Assembly: GCA_938091655.1 (NCBI GenBank)
Contig: CALKOA010000045.1
Coordinates: 1 to 52,129 of the forward strand
DNA length: 52,129 bases
Origin: an uncultured Balneolaceae bacterium
GTDB taxonomy: Bacteria; Bacteroidota; Rhodothermia; Balneolales; Balneolaceae
Direction of reading: 5' to 3'
The notes beneath the pieces were generated by a model. The model ran no database searches and was not told the origin of the DNA. It was given only the letters and a program-made list of their open reading frames with translations. Positions 42,927 through 51,924 of this stretch are shown in pieces; position 1 is the first letter of the stretch; every line of letters begins with the position of its first letter. The position numbers and the translations under genes are program-made.

Positions 42927-45910
42927 GAGGTTTTTTCAATCTTCGTAATTTGGTGCTAGCTGCTAGCCTCTTCAGTAGTGTTGCCATACTATCTCTATTA
43001 GATAATAGAGCCCTTTTTGCTCAAAATACTACCCCTTTTTATCCTATTGAATACCGACCCTACAAAGGGAATTGGTTGCAGCTTAACACCCCTCACTTTC
43101 GCATTATATACCCAGAAGGGCTTGACTCTATCGCATACAATAGTGGCCGTATTTTAGAGCAACAGTACCCTTTAGCACAATCTTTAACCGGTGGATCATT
43201 AAAAAACTTTCCCGTTGTAATTACTAATTATTCTGATCTGAGTAATGGTTTTGTACAATCTTGGAACTTCAAGTCCGAAATAATTTTGGCCCCCATAAAA
43301 GGAAAAGCGATGAATCCCCGAGGTGGGGACTGGTTAGAAACTGTGCTTTCTCACGAGTTATTGCATGCCACCCACGCAAATATTAAAGGCCGGTTTCTAT
43401 TGAATTCTTTCGGGAATCTTTTTGGCCCAGATTTTACTCGTAGTATAAACTTCTATCCGCCCGTTGGCATTCATGAGGGTCTAGCGGTGTATCATGAAGG
43501 TAAAAACGGTCTTTCTAGTAGTCATGGGGGTAGAGGTAATTATGGTTATTTTAAGGCAAAATATTGGGCAAATTTACTCAGTGATTCTCCCTGGAGTATA
43601 GGGGACGGGCTTATTCCTACAGAATATCACTACCCTTTAAACAGACATTATATTGCTGGATATTTTTTTACTGAATGGCTGCAAGAAGCATATGGTGAAC
43701 AGGTTTTTAGCAAAAGTTTTGAACGTCACTATAATCGCTTTCCTTTAGGATTAGGTTTCGCCCTGCGGGATGTTACCACAGATTGGCCAAGTAAAATGGC
43801 CCCAATGTATAGAAACTGGGCGTTGGATATGTATTCATCCGCCCATCGTGGACGAAAGAAAACTCCTATAAAACTCACTGATTATATAAGCCCGCCCACC
43901 AAAGAGGTTGATCAACGAAGACCTCTATGGATTAGCCCTTCAATATTCCTTTATGTTGAGCGAAAATATCATCAACAGCAAGGGGTTTATCTTATCGACA
44001 CCGAGAGTCATAAAACCCGCTTAATTATCGAAGATTTTTTTGTTGAAGATTATATCTTCGCTATTGACCAAACATCAAACGAACTCATTTATTCCGCTTA
44101 TAAAGGTGGCTCGTATTCTTTTGATGAAATCTACTCGTACTTATATCGAGTATCTTACAAAGAAGCAAACTCTAAAAGTACCCTTATACCTGGTTCAAAA
44201 AGAATGTATGCCCCCACTATAGACTCTCATAGAAAAAGCCTTTGGGCATTAAAAAATGAGCAAAATAGTGCACAAATATATGAATACCGAAACAAGATCT
44301 GGTCACAGTGTTCTCGATTTCGTGACACACGACCCATCTCAATAGCTATTCATCCAATAAAAGAAAATGTCTATGCTTTTTTAATGCAAAAAAGAGGGTT
44401 TCAAGGAATTTGGCTGGTTGATGCATTTGCAGATTGTTCAGAAATTATGCCCGCTCTTGATGGACTTGCAGATATTGGGTTTAATAACGCCTCTATTATC
44501 GATGTACAATGGCATCCAATACAACCAACCCTTTTATTAAGTGTAGATAATAAAGACGGGGTACGGATTGTAGAATACAATATTGAAACCGGTCAAACGA
44601 TTATAGTTCTGGATACAGACTTTGCAGCTTATGAAGCCTCTTACTCAGCAGATGGTGCATTAATAAGTTTTGTTGATGAGCAAAATCAAAAAAATATCAT
44701 TGCTGTGATAGACTCTACAAGAAAATTATCTCATCCCTTCGAGTTAACGGTGATGACTTCATTAGATATTAAAAAGAACTCAACTAGTCCATTATTGGGT
44801 TCTGAGCTTTTAGATAGCTCCGCTAATTGGACTATAAAGAAGTATGCTAAGGACCACTCTTGGTGGTCTCCTAGGGTAGTGCTTCCACAAATCATTGATC
44901 AATCTTCTTTTGGATCCGATGATTTTTCTGAGTTAGAAGTGGGTTTATTTATGCAATCTACTGACGTATTACAAGAACAAGGATATCGTTTTTCTGGGAC
45001 TTTATACAAGAATAACCTATGGCATCAACTCAATTATACAACCAAAAAATTCTGGCCTGGCTTAGACATTACACATTATAGACAACCTAACTACTTTATT
45101 TTTTCTCCCGACGGTGGATACTATATAGATTTAATATCGGATGAAAGAGGATGGTCTATCGGTATTCCTTTCAGTTACCGCTTTCGATCTTTAACTCGTT
45201 TTTCTTCGTTACATATTACCCCAACATTGTACTATGAGGGATTGCGATATATAAATGATACAGGGAGTGTGTTGTCAGACTATTTTACTCAAACTAAGTA
45301 CGGGTTTTCTTCATTTCTTCAACTACGTGTTCAACAATTAACTCGCGATATTCAACCTAGAAGCGGTTTTATTACTTCTATCAGTAGCCAAAAAACACTT
45401 CAAGCATCTAAAGGTGATTTTTCTTTAAACAACATTCGTTATACCTATAGTTTAAAAGATAAATATGCCGTTTATACCGAACAAAAAGTGTACATACCAA
45501 TATGGAAAAAAAAGAATATATCCACTTTAGTTAATGCAGCAGTATTAAAACAAAGTGAAAATTTATTGTTTAGCACAAATAATATTAGGAGCACTGGTTT
45601 TTCTACTCCTGTTTTTCCAAACAGTTCATATATAGGGCGTTTTACAACTGAAACGATTGTACCTATTTGGTATATAGATCAGGGATTTTTCACGGTACCG
45701 AGTTCACTAAACGCTGTTTATCTAAAACTATTTACTCACCGTATGTATGATTTAGCAAACCACACTAATGCCGGCTATCCCACTAGAACTAGTTTTGGTG
45801 GGGAACTGAATGTGTTATTTAAGGTATCAAATATTAATTTTTCAGCTGGAATAGGATGGTATTATGATGTGTTAGAAAAAAAATCCGACTTTTTTATTGG
45901 TTCTTTTTAA
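42923..45910 (+). CDS. Large exported protein: gluzincin peptidase, propeller and outer-membrane barrel
   Basis: A 995-residue protein starting with a Sec signal (LVLAASLFSSVAILSLL, then ALFAQ). Residues about 45-290 form a peptidase_MA-like gluzincin domain: HELLHATH near 144 and, 40 residues later, IHEGLAVYHE supplying the Glu ligand. Residues about 310-640 have repeated strand motifs (IFLYVERK, LIYSAYKGG, ALISFVDEQ) consistent with a TolB-like propeller. The C-terminal 300 residues look like an outer-membrane beta-barrel (alternating aromatic strands) ending in Phe (DFFIGSF). Family unknown. Its GC content is distinctly lower than genes to the left. Its 3' end overlaps purM by 17 bases. 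Confidence 0.75.
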   Translation: MRGFFNLRNLVLAASLFSSVAILSLLDNRALFAQNTTPFYPIEYRPYKGNWLQLNTPHFRIIYPEGLDSIAYNSGRILEQQYPLAQSLTGGSLKNFPVVITNYSDLSNGFVQSWNFKSEIILAPIKGKAMNPRGGDWLETVLSHELLHATHANIKGRFLLNSFGNLFGPDFTRSINFYPPVGIHEGLAVYHEGKNGLSSSHGGRGNYGYFKAKYWANLLSDSPWSIGDGLIPTEYHYPLNRHYIAGYFFTEWLQEAYGEQVFSKSFERHYNRFPLGLGFALRDVTTDWPSKMAPMYRNWALDMYSSAHRGRKKTPIKLTDYISPPTKEVDQRRPLWISPSIFLYVERKYHQQQGVYLIDTESHKTRLIIEDFFVEDYIFAIDQTSNELIYSAYKGGSYSFDEIYSYLYRVSYKEANSKSTLIPGSKRMYAPTIDSHRKSLWALKNEQNSAQIYEYRNKIWSQCSRFRDTRPISIAIHPIKENVYAFLMQKRGFQGIWLVDAFADCSEIMPALDGLADIGFNNASIIDVQWHPIQPTLLLSVDNKDGVRIVEYNIETGQTIIVLDTDFAAYEASYSADGALISFVDEQNQKNIIAVIDSTRKLSHPFELTVMTSLDIKKNSTSPLLGSELLDSSANWTIKKYAKDHSWWSPRVVLPQIIDQSSFGSDDFSELEVGLFMQSTDVLQEQGYRFSGTLYKNNLWHQLNYTTKKFWPGLDITHYRQPNYFIFSPDGGYYIDLISDERGWSIGIPFSYRFRSLTRFSSLHITPTLYYEGLRYINDTGSVLSDYFTQTKYGFSSFLQLRVQQLTRDIQPRSGFITSISSQKTLQASKGDFSLNNIRYTYSLKDKYAVYTEQKVYIPIWKKKNISTLVNAAVLKQSENLLFSTNNIRSTGFSTPVFPNSSYIGRFTTETIVPIWYIDQGFFTVPSSLNAVYLKLFTHRMYDLANHTNAGYPTRTSFGGELNVLFKVSNINFSAGIGWYYDVLEKKSDFFIGSF

Positions 45911-46916
45911 CTCTACCTATTTCATACCCTGTTTCACCAAACTTTTCAGCTGTCTCCAAAACTATATTTACTACAGTTTTATCTACAATTGCAATAAGAC
46001 CAATACCAAGGTTAAAAGTTGCTCTCATATCTTCTTCAGGTACATTACCTAAATCTTGGATTAGTGAATAAATTTTGGGTCGCTCCCATGAATCCCATAT
46101 AACATCTAAATCTAGACCATTTGGTACTATTCTTTTTGTGTTACCAATTATTCCCCCACCTGTAATGTGAGAAAAGCCTTGCACAAGCTTAATTTTTTTT
46201 AGTTCTGTGATGAGGCCTAGATACGATTTATGAACTTTTAAAAGTTCTTCTGAAAGAGTGGTACCTAATTCATTTACATAATCATCAATCTTGTAGGTTG
46301 AAAATAATACGTTTCGCGCCAAAGAATACCCATTGGTATGTAGACCAGAGCTTTTAAAACCGATTAAAATGGAATCTTCTTTTATTTCATCACCGTTAAT
46401 AATTTCATTTTCATCTACTATACCAACAATAGTACCAGCTAAGTCAAATTCACCTGGTTTGTAAATATCAGGCATTTCAGCTGTTTCACCACCAATTAAT
46501 GCTACATTATTCTCCTTACAAGCTGTCGCAAAACCTTTGATCACTTCTACACCTATCTTCTGTTCTAACTTACCTGTTGAAAAGTAATCAAGAAAAAATA
46601 ATGGGGTAGCTCCACAAACAGCAATATCATTTATACAATGGTTTACAAGATCTTGTCCAACCGTGTCATATTTTTGAGCCTTGTAGGCTACGATGAGTTT
46701 TGTTCCTACACCATCAACAGAACTCACAAAAACTGGATTTTTAATCGTGGTCAGATTTGGTTTAAAAAAACCACCAAAGCCACCAATATTACTCAAAACT
46801 TCAACCCCATGTGTATCTTTGACAAGGTCTTTAATCGTATGGACTAACTCCTCTCCGGCTTTTATATCAACACCTGAGTCTTTATATGTAAAGGTCTTTT
46901 TTTCCATGTTTTTCAA
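45894..46916 (-). CDS. purM: Phosphoribosylformylglycinamidine cyclo-ligase (AIR synthetase)
   Basis: Fifth step of purine synthesis: closes FGAM to aminoimidazole ribotide with ATP. The 340 residues have the PurM family order: KDSGVDIKAGEELVHTIKDL, the metal/nucleotide site SSVDGVGTKLIVAYKAQKYD, HCINDIAVCGATPLFFLDYF, and LIGGETAEMPDIYKPGEFDL. The start may be M4 (MEKKTFTY). Base composition is strikingly AT-rich (about 30% GC in sampled lines). The 3' end overlaps the large exported protein by 17 bases, and its 5' end faces the DnaA-box-rich region. Confidence 0.96.
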   Translation of the reverse strand: MKNMEKKTFTYKDSGVDIKAGEELVHTIKDLVKDTHGVEVLSNIGGFGGFFKPNLTTIKNPVFVSSVDGVGTKLIVAYKAQKYDTVGQDLVNHCINDIAVCGATPLFFLDYFSTGKLEQKIGVEVIKGFATACKENNVALIGGETAEMPDIYKPGEFDLAGTIVGIVDENEIINGDEIKEDSILIGFKSSGLHTNGYSLARNVLFSTYKIDDYVNELGTTLSEELLKVHKSYLGLITELKKIKLVQGFSHITGGGIIGNTKRIVPNGLDLDVIWDSWERPKIYSLIQDLGNVPEEDMRATFNLGIGLIAIVDKTVVNIVLETAEKFGETGYEIGRVKKNQ

Positions 46917-46937
46917 ATCAGTTTTTTTCAGTACCTA

Positions 46938-47377
46938 AATATAACATCTTTCAAAATCTTCCTTGAAAGGGATTTTTAGTTTTTTTCCACAGGGTCTTAT
47001 TAATAATGATTAGATGTATATATATAGTAGTATATAGTAGATACTGTGGACATGTTGATAATGAATTTATACATATGTAGTTAATCAATGAGGATAGATT
47101 GTTAATAAAAAGGTGGAGAACGTTCGATTAAATAAAGCTCATTAAGCTTCTATAAAGAGTATTTTCTTTAAAACACAGCACTTTTAAATGAACTTGTACA
47201 CATTAGTACCTGTTTTGTACATATATACTTTAATATAAAACTAACACATAATATACCTGGTATAAGTAGTGGATAAGTAAAATAAAATGTGGAAAGGAGT
47301 GGACAAATATAGCTACTTTGAATTATCCATTACTTATGAGAAAGATATCCACACCCCTATCCACAAAATGAACAACT
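46938..47377. other. Candidate replication origin (DnaA-box cluster) between purM and dtd
   Basis: A 440-base AT-rich gap between divergent genes. 9-mers at or near TTATNCACA: TTTTCCACA (46983, +, fits TTWTNCACA), TGTGGACAT (47045, minus), AGTGGATAA (47268, minus, one change), TGTGGAAAG (47288, minus, one change), AGTGGACAA (47298, minus), TTATCCATT (47323, +), ATATCCACA (47345, +, one change) and CTATCCACA (47357, +, one change). A TAGTAG-type tract (47016-47042) lies next to the box at 47045. No coding frame is evident. An origin is the simplest reading, but the dnaA gene is not here. Confidence 0.55.
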
Positions 47378-47821
47378 ATGAAAGCTCTAATACAGCGCGT
47401 CACTAATGCAAAGGTTCACATAAGTGGAATAACAAAAGGGTCTATTAATAAAGGCTTAGTTATTTTTGTTGGTTTTGCTGATAGTGATACGTTTGAAAAG
47501 ATTGAATGGGTTGTCAAAAAAATTGCAAAACTACGCATCTTTACAGATCAAGATGGGAAAATGAATAATTCAGTAGAAGATGTACAAGGAGAATTATTAA
47601 TTATATCTCAGTTCACGTTATATGCCTCAGTAAAAAAAGGGACCAGACCTAGTTTTATTGAAGCAGCTGAACCTATATATGCAGAAAATCTATATAACTA
47701 CTTTATAGAATATGCCCGTAAACAAACTACATTAAACATAGAAACGGGAAGTTTTGGTGCTGATATGAAAGTTGAATTAACCAATGATGGACCAGTAACA
47801 ATTTTAGTGGAAAAAGAGTAA
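47378..47821 (+). CDS. dtd: D-aminoacyl-tRNA deacylase
   Basis: Removes D-amino acids (and glycine) mischarged on tRNA. The 147 residues match the family: MKALIQRVTNAKVHI start, the SQFTLYA motif near 78, KGTRPSFIEAAEP, and the Gly-cisPro motif NDGPVTILVE near the C-terminus. The ATG follows the last DnaA-box-like sequence by 12 bases. The gene is AT-rich, like its neighbours. The patatin gene starts 6 bases after its stop, so the two probably form an operon. Confidence 0.96.
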   Translation: MKALIQRVTNAKVHISGITKGSINKGLVIFVGFADSDTFEKIEWVVKKIAKLRIFTDQDGKMNNSVEDVQGELLIISQFTLYASVKKGTRPSFIEAAEPIYAENLYNYFIEYARKQTTLNIETGSFGADMKVELTNDGPVTILVEKE

Positions 47822-47827
47822 TTAGGA

Positions 47828-48730
47828 ATGAAAAAAGTTCAACTTGTTTTAGGTAGCGGCGGTGCTAGAGGGATAGCACATATTGCTATTATAGAAGGGT
47901 TAGTTAAAGACGGTATAGAAATAGAAGCTATTTATGGATGTTCGATGGGCGCAGTCATAGGTGGTATTTTTGCTGCAGGCCATTTGGAAGAATATAAAGA
48001 ATGGTTACTTAGCCTGACTAAAAATGATGTTTTTGATTTAATGGATTTTACCTTAACAAAAGAGGGTTTTATTAAAGGAGATAAGATATTTGATAGGCAT
48101 CGAGAAATGACGGGTGAATTGTTAATTGAAGAGTTTGATATTCCTTTTACCGCTGTGGCTTTGGATATTAAATCAGGGAAAGAGATCTACTTTACTAAAG
48201 GTGATTTATACCAAGCATTACGAGGCTCTGTTGCTATTCCCGGATTTATTATCCCTCATAGAACCAAAAGCTATGTTCTCATTGATGGCGGTGTGACCAA
48301 CCCATTACCATTAAATCTAGCCATTCGAAAAGAAAAGAGCGTCGTTTTAGCCATTGATTTAAGCGGTCCAAAAGACCCTTTGTTTATACTAAAAGACATA
48401 AATAATGAGGAGAAAAATCCTGTTCCACATTGGTTTGAGCGAATTATTCCAAGCTATGTACAACCAACTAGAAAAGAAAAGAAGGATGATAAGAAAGAGG
48501 AGGAACAAACCCTCTCTTTATTACAACTTATGGAAACTACATTCATATTATCACAAAACAAACTAAATGAATTAATTATTGACAAATATGAACCTGAATT
48601 ATTAATTCGTTTACCAAGAAAAATGGCCCAAACCTTAGATTTTTTTAGAGCAAAAGAAATATACGGCTTAGGTGTTAAGGCATATAAGAAACACAGAAAA
48701 CAGATTTTAGAAAAAACCGAATCTAATTAA
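47828..48730 (+). CDS. Patatin-like phospholipase
   Basis: A 300-residue cytoplasmic patatin of the RssA-type group. The oxyanion-hole GSGGARGIAHIA lies at about 9-20, the nucleophile Ser39 in YGCSMGAV (GxSxG), and the catalytic Asp in LIDGGVTNPLPLNL near 154. A Lys/Glu-rich segment (about 218-230, TRKEKKDDKKEEEQT) links to C-terminal helices. It may hydrolyse phospholipids; substrate unknown. Its TAA shares a TTAA with the adk stop on the opposite strand. Confidence 0.9.
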   Translation: MKKVQLVLGSGGARGIAHIAIIEGLVKDGIEIEAIYGCSMGAVIGGIFAAGHLEEYKEWLLSLTKNDVFDLMDFTLTKEGFIKGDKIFDRHREMTGELLIEEFDIPFTAVALDIKSGKEIYFTKGDLYQALRGSVAIPGFIIPHRTKSYVLIDGGVTNPLPLNLAIRKEKSVVLAIDLSGPKDPLFILKDINNEEKNPVPHWFERIIPSYVQPTRKEKKDDKKEEEQTLSLLQLMETTFILSQNKLNELIIDKYEPELLIRLPRKMAQTLDFFRAKEIYGLGVKAYKKHRKQILEKTESN

Positions 48731-49278
48731 ATCACGTTTTTAATTCGTTCAAATACAGTTTTAACCGAACCTGTACCATCAATAACATTAACTAATCCTT
48801 GTTTTTCATAATAATCTAAAACAGGCTTTGTTTCGTTTTGATAAACAGTCAATCTGTTTTTAATACCCTCTACTGTGTCGTCTGTACGACCCTGCCCACG
48901 AGAAAGGATTCTATTTATTAGTTCTTCCTCAGGAACCACCAAGGAAATAAGGGTATGCACAGCGGTGTTTTTATTCGCTAACATTTGATCGAAAGATTTA
49001 GCTTGGGCTACGGTTCGCGGAAAACCATCAAAAACACATCCTTCAAGATAAACATCTTTAGTAGTTTCTTCTTGAACAAGGTCTACCACGACATCATCAG
49101 AAACTAGTTCACCGGCGTCTAATATAGATTTTACTTTAATTCCGAGAGGTGTTTCGTCTTGTATTGCAGATCGAAACATGTTTCCGGTAGATAAGTGGGC
49201 TAAATTGAAGTGCTTAACTATATATTCGGCTTGCGTACCCTTTCCTGCTCCTGGTGGGCCAAATAAAATAATATTCAT
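48727..49278 (-). CDS. adk: Adenylate kinase (short-lid type)
   Basis: Interconverts ATP+AMP and 2 ADP. The 183 residues contain the P-loop MNIILFGPPGAGKGTQAEYI, the AMP site HLSTGNMFRSAI, DGFPRTVAQA, and a short lid (RILSRGQGRTDDTVEGIKNR). The lid is the small form without zinc-binding Cys. It is last in the ffh-rpsP-rimM-trmD-rplS run on this strand, about 76 bases after rplS. It overlaps the patatin stop by 4 bases. Confidence 0.96.
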   Translation of the reverse strand: MNIILFGPPGAGKGTQAEYIVKHFNLAHLSTGNMFRSAIQDETPLGIKVKSILDAGELVSDDVVVDLVQEETTKDVYLEGCVFDGFPRTVAQAKSFDQMLANKNTAVHTLISLVVPEEELINRILSRGQGRTDDTVEGIKNRLTVYQNETKPVLDYYEKQGLVNVIDGTGSVKTVFERIKNVI

Positions 49279-49354
49279 GAGTGAGAGCTATGAATGTTAA
49301 TAAAGTAAGGTTTCAACCCAAAACGAGTTGAAACCTGGTAGATTAAAAGAGGTG

Positions 49355-49702
49355 TTATTTAGACTCTTTTTCTTTAATACGAGCAGCTTTACCTCGTAAT
49401 TCACGTAAATAAAAGAGCTTTGAACGTCTAACTTTTCCGTGCTTTTTCACTTCTATTTTAGCAATAAAAGGTGAGTTTATTGGAAAAATACGCTCCACAC
49501 CAATACTTCCGCTCATTTTTCGAACGGTGAAAGTTTTGTTTGGTCCGCTACCGCGTTCCGATAATACAACACCTTCATACTGCTGAATTCGTTCTTTTTC
49601 ACCTTCACGTACACGATAATGCACATTAACGGTATCACCCGCAGTGAAAGCGGGCATATCGTCATTGATTAGGCTTTGTTCAACTAGTTTTAGCTTGTCC
49701 AT
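49355..49702 (-). CDS. rplS: 50S ribosomal protein bL19
   Basis: Large-subunit protein at the interface with the small subunit. The 115 residues are full length, with [60 protein letters not shown] and the C-terminal [19 protein letters not shown]. It follows trmD by 58 bases in the conserved order. Confidence 0.98.
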
Positions 49703-49760
49703 AATAGTACCAATGGTATTAAATAATAGGTTTGAACCTATAGTTAAGTTAATAATCTTT

Positions 49761-50444
49761 TTAGTCGTCTTTTAATAAATCTTTTCGTCTAGACTTTGTC
49801 TTGTCAATTGATTGCTGATCTTGCCACGCTTTTATTTTTTTTGGATCACCCGATCTAAGAACATCTGGAACAAGCCACCCATTAAAATTAGCAGGACGTG
49901 TGTATACCGGCGCTTCAAGCAGTCCATCTTGAAACGAATCGTTAAGCGCACTACCCGCATCACCTATGGCTCCTGGCAATAGCCGAACAATAGCATCGAC
50001 AATCATCATTGCGGGCAATTCACCCCCTGAGAGAACAACATCACCGATGCTATACTCTTTTGTTATGAGGTGCTCTCGGATTCGCTGGTCAATTCCTTTG
50101 TAGTGACCACAAAGAAGGATAATATTTTTTTTAAGGCTTAAGGTATTTGCTTCTTTTTGTGTAAAAGGGATACCATCTGGCGCTGTAAATATTATTTCGT
50201 CATACGAGCGTTGCTCACAAAGGTGATTTATACAATCAAAAATAGGCTGGGGACTTAGTACCATTCCTGGATCACCCCCGTAGGGATAGTCATCTATTTT
50301 TAAATGTTTATCACTTGTAAAGTTTCGCAAGTCGTGAATATGTACATCCACGAGGCTTTTATCTTTAGCTCGTTTAACAATACTGTGGTCTAAAGGGCCG
50401 CTTAATAATGCGGGGACGGCTGAAATAATGTCGAAGCGTATCAT
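49761..50444 (-). CDS. trmD: tRNA (guanine-N1)-methyltransferase
   Basis: Methylates G37 of tRNAs read CNN codons, preventing frameshifting. The 227 residues show the trefoil-knot SAM site: [13 protein letters not shown], then [20 protein letters not shown] and [17 protein letters not shown], with the catalytic Asp expected in the linker after it. The C-terminal helical domain binds tRNA ([11 protein letters not shown]). The ATG overlaps the rimM stop (50441-50444, ATGA), indicating translational coupling. Confidence 0.97.
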
Positions 50445-50989
50445 AAATCTAAGAGGTTATCTACGTTCGAAAATTGAATCGTTTGTTCAGTGGTATTTAT
50501 CTCTACAAGGTAGGGCTCAACTAAGGGAATGAGTACAGACCCCTTAGTAGTAGCCACCTGAACCAAGGGTTGAACACTTGGTATATCGGTAGGAATAATG
50601 GTACCAATTAACTCACCGTTTTCGTCGAAGGCAGTAAAACCATCATAACCATTGTTTTTATCTGGAGCACTATGTGTCCACTCATCATATAGATGAGTAT
50701 CAATAAATAGGCGATGATGTTGGATAGCTTCGGCGTGCGACCGATTAGCAATTTGATCAAAAGTGACAAAGAACAAAGTGGCGTTCCGTTTATTTTCGGT
50801 TCGGATAGACAGAACTCTCAAAGGGTATAAATCACCTCTATTATTTTTTAGAAAAACGACTAAGTTTTCCTCATTGTGAATAACAGAGGGGTCTGGTAGC
50901 TCCCAAACAACCTTAACTTCTCCTTGAAGACCATGGGCGCGGTCAATATGACCAATGCTCATAAATCCAGAAGGGCTTGGGTTGCTCAT
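50441..50989 (-). CDS. rimM: 16S rRNA processing protein RimM
   Basis: Assembly factor for the 30S head that binds uS19. The 182 residues have the N-terminal RimM domain (MSIGHIDRAHGLQGEVKVVW) and a C-terminal PRC-barrel (YDGFTAFDENGELIGTIIPT, VLIPLVEPYLVEINTTEQTI). The length fits the family. It sits between rpsP (20-base gap) and trmD (4-base overlap). Confidence 0.95.
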   Translation of the reverse strand: MSNPSPSGFMSIGHIDRAHGLQGEVKVVWELPDPSVIHNEENLVVFLKNNRGDLYPLRVLSIRTENKRNATLFFVTFDQIANRSHAEAIQHHRLFIDTHLYDEWTHSAPDKNNGYDGFTAFDENGELIGTIIPTDIPSVQPLVQVATTKGSVLIPLVEPYLVEINTTEQTIQFSNVDNLLDL

Positions 50990-51009
50990 GGGATTAACTC
51001 AAAGGTTAA

Positions 51010-51924
51010 CTAGGCTTCTTTTTTTGCTTCCCAAGCAGCCAAAACCGTTTTACGCTCTTCACCATCAGCCACAAAGCCCTCAAGGTCTTCTAAGGAGGTT
51101 GCTGCTATATGATCAGCCGCTTCTTTAGCGGTCATATCGGCGGAGCTTTTTACGGATTGTTCCTCTGCTTCATCGCTAGTTTTTTCTGCTTGTTCAGCAG
51201 GAGTAGCATCTTCAGTAGTTGTTGATTCTGCTTCTTCAGAAGCCGCCTCAGATGATTTCTCTGCCTTTTCTTCTACCTCCGCTTCCGCATTAGAACTTGT
51301 TGTTTCTTCCGCTACAACCGCATCTTCTTCTGAAGGGGCGTCTTCGGTGGATACTTCAACCGTCGCCTCTACATCAGCTTCTACACCGGTCTTTACTTCT
51401 GCTCCTGGTTCTTCTGGCGCAGACTCTTCGGATACGTCATTTTCGGTAGCTTCAGCAATCTCTGTTTCAGCTGCTTTTTCGGCCTCTTGAGCCATTTCAG
51501 CAGCAGCGCTAGCTTTTTGCTCTATTTGTTTCTTTACTTCTTTCTCTTCCGCAATTAGAGTAGCGCGGACCTGTTCTTTTCGCGTGACCTCTGTGCTTGC
51601 TTTTGCTTCACGAGCCGCTCTCCACTCTTCAAGTGCTGTAGTAATTTCTTCTTCACTTTTGCCCCACATTTGTAGGTGGCGCTTGTAAAGAAAGCCTTCA
51701 TGACGAAGAATTTTTTCAACCGCATCGGTTGCCTTAGCGCCATTATCTAACCAATAGCTGATACGCTCTTCGTTAATGGTGGTTTCTTTTTTTTCAGTTA
51801 CCCCATCATAACGGCCAACTTGCTCTATTATTCGACCATCGCGTGGTGAACGGCTGTCAGCAACTACGATATGATAAATAGGACGACGAATACGCCCCTT
51901 TCGTTGTAGTCTAATTTTAATCAA
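51010..51924 (-). CDS. rpsP: 30S ribosomal protein bS16 with long acidic C-terminal extension
   Basis: Residues 1 to about 85 are a normal bS16: MIKIRLQRKGRIRRPIYHIV, DSRSPRDGRIIEQVGRYDGV, then ISYWLDNGAKATDAVEKIL. The family usually ends at 80-110 residues; here 304. After a Lys/Arg-rich helix (about 108-145) comes a Glu/Ala/Thr/Ser-rich, low-complexity region (about 145-260), and the last 40 residues (MTAKEAADHIAATSLEDLEG, then FVADGEERKTVLAAWEAK) look like a small helical domain. Function unknown; the tail would project from the ribosome. It is second in the conserved run after ffh. Confidence 0.95.
   Translation of the reverse strand: MIKIRLQRKGRIRRPIYHIVVADSRSPRDGRIIEQVGRYDGVTEKKETTINEERISYWLDNGAKATDAVEKILRHEGFLYKRHLQMWGKSEEEITTALEEWRAAREAKASTEVTRKEQVRATLIAEEKEVKKQIEQKASAAAEMAQEAEKAAETEIAEATENDVSEESAPEEPGAEVKTGVEADVEATVEVSTEDAPSEEDAVVAEETTSSNAEAEVEEKAEKSSEAASEEAESTTTEDATPAEQAEKTSDEAEEQSVKSSADMTAKEAADHIAATSLEDLEGFVADGEERKTVLAAWEAKKEA

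Follow-up and report, generated by a model that had tools for sequence, protein, structure and literature searches.

The arrangement of purM and dtd in an uncultured Balneolaceae bacterium raises the question of whether its chromosome is replicated from a site remote from dnaA. The two genes lie in a window of 52,129 nucleotides, the entire contig C45 of a 2.05 Mb draft genome in 149 contigs, and are separated by an intergenic gap of 461 bases. The original prediction was that the gap contains a cluster of DnaA boxes between outward-reading genes, and is thus a candidate oriC with no dnaA nearby. The genes are indeed divergent, with purM on the minus and dtd on the plus strand, and the dnaA of this genome sits on another contig, C129. 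As described below, the purM-dtd gap is very probably the oriC of this bacterium and of the Balneolales generally. This view is based on the boxes, the change of GC skew at the gap in relatives, the dif-like sites opposite to it and a putative unwinding module, together with the lack of boxes and skew change in other orders.

The GC content of the gap is 27.5% compared with 42.0% for the window. The gap contains eight 9-mers that differ from TTATNCACA by exactly one change (identified in the table below) and no exact match. In 1,000 shuffles of the gap sequence that preserve dinucleotides the expected number of one-change boxes was 1.2, and none of the shuffles reached eight; the box cluster is therefore real and its density above that of shuffled sequence. 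Similarly, 23 9-mers are within two changes of TTATNCACA (10.4 expected, 0/1,000 shuffles), while the core TCCACA is present in five copies against an expectation of 0.15. Box density in the window peaks in the gap, where the eight boxes in 461 bases compare with three in the best non-overlapping stretches, confirming that nothing else in the window matches it. The gap sequence is single copy, giving only one match in its own genome, and an Rfam search of the window returned no match.

Features of the purM-dtd region, with positions in the window; conserved positions are relative to dtd
Feature	Position	Strand	Basis or remark
purM, left neighbour	45894..46916	-	TIGR00878; tblastn of flanks, kept in 17/17 Balneolales
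Predicted oriC, AT-rich gap with DnaA-box cluster	46917..47377	.	Box excess, skew change in relatives, one copy
DnaA box TTTTCCACA, outer left, faces unwinding zone	46983..46991	+	One change; family-conserved as TTTTCCACA or TTATCCACA
Predicted DNA unwinding element	46996..47044	.	Stability, alignment of 21 relatives, module count
DnaA box ATGTCCACA, inner of tandem pair, beside trios	47045..47053	-	Two changes
DnaA box TTATCAACA, second of tandem pair	47053..47061	-	One change; alignment with relatives
Box-like TTATACATA	47067..47075	+	One change; position not family-conserved
DnaA box-like TTATTAACA	47100..47108	-	One change; conserved position, -248 in most relatives
Weak box TTCTCCACC	47112..47120	-	Position -236; relatives have TTATCCACA or TTACCCACA
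DnaA box TTGTACACA	47194..47202	+	One change; conserved position -185
DnaA box TTATCCACT	47268..47276	-	One change; conserved position -110
Weak box CTTTCCACA	47288..47296	-	Box scan, alignment
Weak box TTGTCCACT	47298..47306	-	Conserved position -80; TTATCCACA in same-genus G006, G008
DnaA box ATATCCACA	47345..47353	+	One change; conserved position -33
DnaA box CTATCCACA	47357..47365	+	One change; conserved position -21; starts 12 bases after preceding box
dtd (D-aminoacyl-tRNA deacylase), conserved right neighbour	47378..47821	+	TIGR00256

The box array is a property of the order rather than of the single genome. At least five boxes are present in the 470 bases before dtd at 57 of 58 loci, corresponding to 49 of the 50 distinct genomes with usable DNA upstream of the gene (eight genomes are counted twice), with a median of eight; only 0.7% of shuffles give five or more. 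The boxes recur at fixed places and in fixed orientations before dtd, at -21(+), -33(+), around -80(-), -110(-), -185(+), -236(-), -248(-), -295(-), -303(-) and -364(+). The left part of the array in the window is offset by 30 bases through an insertion common to the genus. Many relatives have TTATCCACA or ATATCCACA at the position of the inner box of the tandem pair, while TTATACATA is possibly a chance occurrence as its position is not conserved in the family. The Balneolaceae metagenome-assembled genome MES10 (VEMX01000017.1) contains 10 boxes in the gap, across which the skew is -0.056 / +0.113. Elsewhere in the fetched flanks, no cluster exceeds four boxes per 450 bases.

The sole locus with fewer than five boxes (L021) is in G055, from family f4, where dtd has different neighbouring genes and is not preceded by any box. 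Thus dtd alone was rejected as an origin marker, and purM, which tblastn of the flanks placed beside the gap in 17/17 Balneolales, may be the safer one. Among the checked relatives that lack a dtd match, four also have no purM match, while the other two display boxes upstream of purM followed by the end of the contig, which fits assembly breaks near the gap. Ten genomes from other orders of the class had no boxes and no skew change at dtd. An association of dtd with oriC beyond the Balneolales was likewise rejected, as none of 40 more named dtd loci, mainly from Bacteroidota, has more than three boxes upstream. As far as tested, a dnaA-distant oriC at purM-dtd is confined to the Balneolales.

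The skew minimum, which the original prediction had put forward as a check, was evaluated in relatives and lent support to an origin at the gap. Flanks were sampled in stretches of up to 20 kb, and in 16 of the 17 Balneolales genomes, drawn from four families, GC skew is negative before the gap and positive after it; the same-genus G003, G006 and G008 are among the 16. The mean change in the 17 genomes is +0.089 versus an average of -0.004 at the dtd loci of 10 genomes from other orders (Mann-Whitney p = 1.4e-5); G034 was excluded from the set as one side had just 188 bases. The exception is G040, which has 15 boxes in the gap and in which skew rises from +0.023 to +0.050 with its sign unchanged. 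In the 1.62 Mb contig of G030 skew to the left of dtd is negative from 420 kb on and to the right is positive or near zero, the change occurring at dtd (983 kb) and not at dnaA (1,352 kb).

The cumulative-skew minimum of the fetched flanks is within ∼510 bases of the dtd junction in eight of the 17 genomes. Of the others, seven have it 4.5-8 kb away on the dtd side, G042 has it 1.2 kb away and G040 at the distal limit of the stretch. For genomes of the same genus, values are negative over the first 4.75 kb to the right (-0.017 to -0.063) and strongly positive thereafter (+0.080 to +0.130). Their displaced minimum coincides with a gap-facing operon of adk, rplS, trmD and rpsP, and the shift towards the dtd side is taken as a local gene effect. 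On the contig studied here skew is -0.021 in the left 20 kb and -0.014 in the right 4.75 kb, with no change of sign; these values are uninformative because the contig ends 4.75 kb to the right of dtd, within the operon that reads towards the gap.

Closed chromosomes extend the skew data to the whole circle. In G100 (3.75 Mb) dtd is at 320 kb and dnaA at 3,618 kb. Skew is negative from 0 to 320 kb (all four samples) and from 2.1 to 3.4 Mb (all samples); between 321 kb and 1.9 Mb it is either positive or close to zero. These signs fit an origin at purM-dtd and a terminus opposite. A dif-like site, CCTATAATTTATATTATGTAAA, at 2.225 Mb is separated from the gap by 50.8% of the circle and from dnaA by 37%, while in the closed genome G069 the dif-like site CGTATAATATATATTATGTAAA is 51.6% of the circle from dtd and 42% from dnaA. 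These sites were called by consensus pattern only, for which a reversed-pattern control gave a background of up to ∼1 match per genome at one mismatch. A nearly identical dif-like sequence is present in five genomes. In closed G042 skew changes at dtd, the rest of the circle is noisier, and the pattern search found no dif site; nor did it find one in the genomes from other orders. The genome under study contains a candidate dif, CTCATAATATATATTATGTAAA, at G000:C81:7657-7678, one change from the pattern.

The gap also contains a candidate for the site of strand opening. By nearest-neighbour stability, no 40-base stretch in the window is less stable than 46996-47035. Trio-like TAGTAG motifs are present at 47025-47030 and 47035-47040, separated by a break of four bases (TATA), and a four-base spacer, ATAC (47041-47044), connects the second to the tandem boxes. 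An alignment of 21 relatives displays the same order of AT-rich DNA, TAG/TAA repeats, short spacer and a tandem pair of minus-strand boxes. The pattern TARTAR-N(2-6)-TGTGGA occurs at 41 of 58 loci (36/50 genomes) compared with 0.07 in shuffles. In Bacillus subtilis DnaA-box#6/7 and the DnaA-trios constitute a basal unwinding system that is also found in many other bacteria (PMC6669920, PMC8287927), and the published search rule for this system is a DnaA box at most 16 bases from at least three.A. trios (PMC8287927). Like this system, the gap has TAG/TAA (3′-GAT-5′) repeats that lead through AT-rich DNA towards tandem DnaA boxes and stop about four bases short of them. It differs from the B. 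subtilis system in its location away from dnaA and in its trio run, in which two TAGs are followed by a break of frame and then two more (TAGTAG-TATA-TAGTAG), too few at this spacing for the published rule, which requires three without interruption. A strict run of three at the tandem box of the window is obtained only with an 11-base spacer, while in the relatives G011 and G029 there are five or four uninterrupted, perfect trios.

By analogy with the B. subtilis unwinding module, we infer that the gap would function as follows. DnaA, made elsewhere, would bind the ∼10 boxes at their fixed places. The tandem pair at 47045-47061 faces the AT-rich stretch with the TAG trios at 47025-47040, and DnaA-ATP on this pair may extend as a filament along the trio strand. 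Such a filament would open 46996-47044, where the helicase could be loaded, and two forks would then leave to the left and right. Binding of DnaA and melting at this point are predicted from the B. subtilis work, and use of the origin in this very genome is likewise a prediction.

The dnaA locus provides the most obvious alternative location. Upstream of dnaA on C129 there are three exact TTATCCACA boxes, and exact boxes are not clustered anywhere else in the genome. In nearly all Balneolales two or three exact TTATCCACA boxes are found upstream of dnaA, with spacings of ∼99 and ∼163 bases (L001:738-1063, L033-L061). These boxes could be oriC, with the purM-dtd cluster acting as a DnaA titration or reactivation site, and both the exactness of the three boxes and their recurrence in relatives would favour such an arrangement. 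In relatives with both genes on one contig dnaA and dtd are 0.27-0.83 Mb apart, and the skew data separate the two locations. At dnaA there is no sign change in G030 (+0.009 / +0.065) or in G026, which is negative on both sides (-0.066 / -0.059) and changes sign at dtd; the values for G027 (-0.005 / +0.032) are weak evidence. In closed G100 the samples between dnaA and dtd are all negative, a pattern incompatible with an origin at dnaA, and the dif-like site is opposite dtd instead of dnaA. Furthermore, the region upstream of dnaA contains no good TAG/TAA trio run beside any box. Designation of dnaA as the origin on the exact boxes alone was therefore rejected by skew, and initiation at dnaA is very unlikely. 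The claim that the candidate oriC lies away from dnaA is upheld, with the skew of relatives changing at the gap and not at dnaA. The Balneolales dnaA promoter cluster resembles the gap in its conserved DnaA boxes, constant spacing and position upstream of a gene, but differs from it in lacking a good trio run and, in the genomes with the best sampling, any change of skew. This array likely serves dnaA autoregulation and is possibly the remains of an older origin. Several genomes of other orders (G105, G117, G080, G107 and G075; L256-L261) carry a second DnaA-like gene, and each of the two genes matches DnaA over a long stretch.

It could also be argued that the boxes in the gap mediate DnaA control of purM and dtd transcription and that no origin is present. 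The most conserved boxes (-33 and -21) are close to the start of dtd, and as purM and dtd are divergent DnaA may well affect both. Transcriptional control, however, leaves the skew sign change, the opposite dif-like site and the trio element unexplained; as the sole function of the cluster it is even less probable than an origin at dnaA, although DnaA may control the two genes in addition to its role at the origin. That the cluster is merely a chance product of an AT-rich gap (72% AT) is the least credible explanation and can be virtually dismissed: while the boxes of the window are all imperfect, no shuffle of the gap reaches their number and their layout is kept across an order. The data thus favour the purM-dtd gap as oriC. 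With respect to its evolution, it is tentatively proposed that an ancestor of the Balneolales uncoupled oriC from dnaA, that the origin became fixed at purM-dtd with a constant array of ∼10 boxes, and that the dnaA array is now a remote regulator or a remnant of the older origin.

Origins distant from dnaA are already known as a kind, including the oriC at gidA-mioC in Escherichia coli and Yersinia (PMC10225481) and that of Synechococcus lividus PCC 6715 (DoriC 10.0, PMC6323995). The gap is similar to these origins in comprising a cluster of DnaA boxes far from dnaA, and differs from them in its flanking genes, purM and dtd, which are constant over an order. Searches of the literature on oriC with Balneolales, Salinibacter, dtd or purM did not find the purM-dtd location; DoriC may hold automatic predictions. 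The literature searched describes no origin for this order of environmental bacteria; the assignment would locate it for all of them, at a site that a rule based on dnaA would miss. This affects the start of chromosome numbering in Balneolales, growth rates estimated from coverage in metagenomes and the strand assignment of genes. The constant box array and recognizable trio module over several families also provide a data set on how origins are built and become separated from dnaA.

Ribosomal protein genes are usually co-directional with the replication fork. To the right of dtd, adk, rplS, trmD, a rimM-like gene and rpsP (48727-51924, minus strand) read towards the origin and are thus head-on to the predicted fork. 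The same orientation is observed in all eight relatives with rplS in the fetched flanks (L073, L107, L114, L117, L119, L121, L206 and L270). The product of rpsP (51010-51924), S16, is 304 amino acids long, of which the S16 model covers residues 2-78; its long C-terminal extension is acidic and rich in Ala, Glu and Ser. The protein has a full-length match in the same-genus genome G003.
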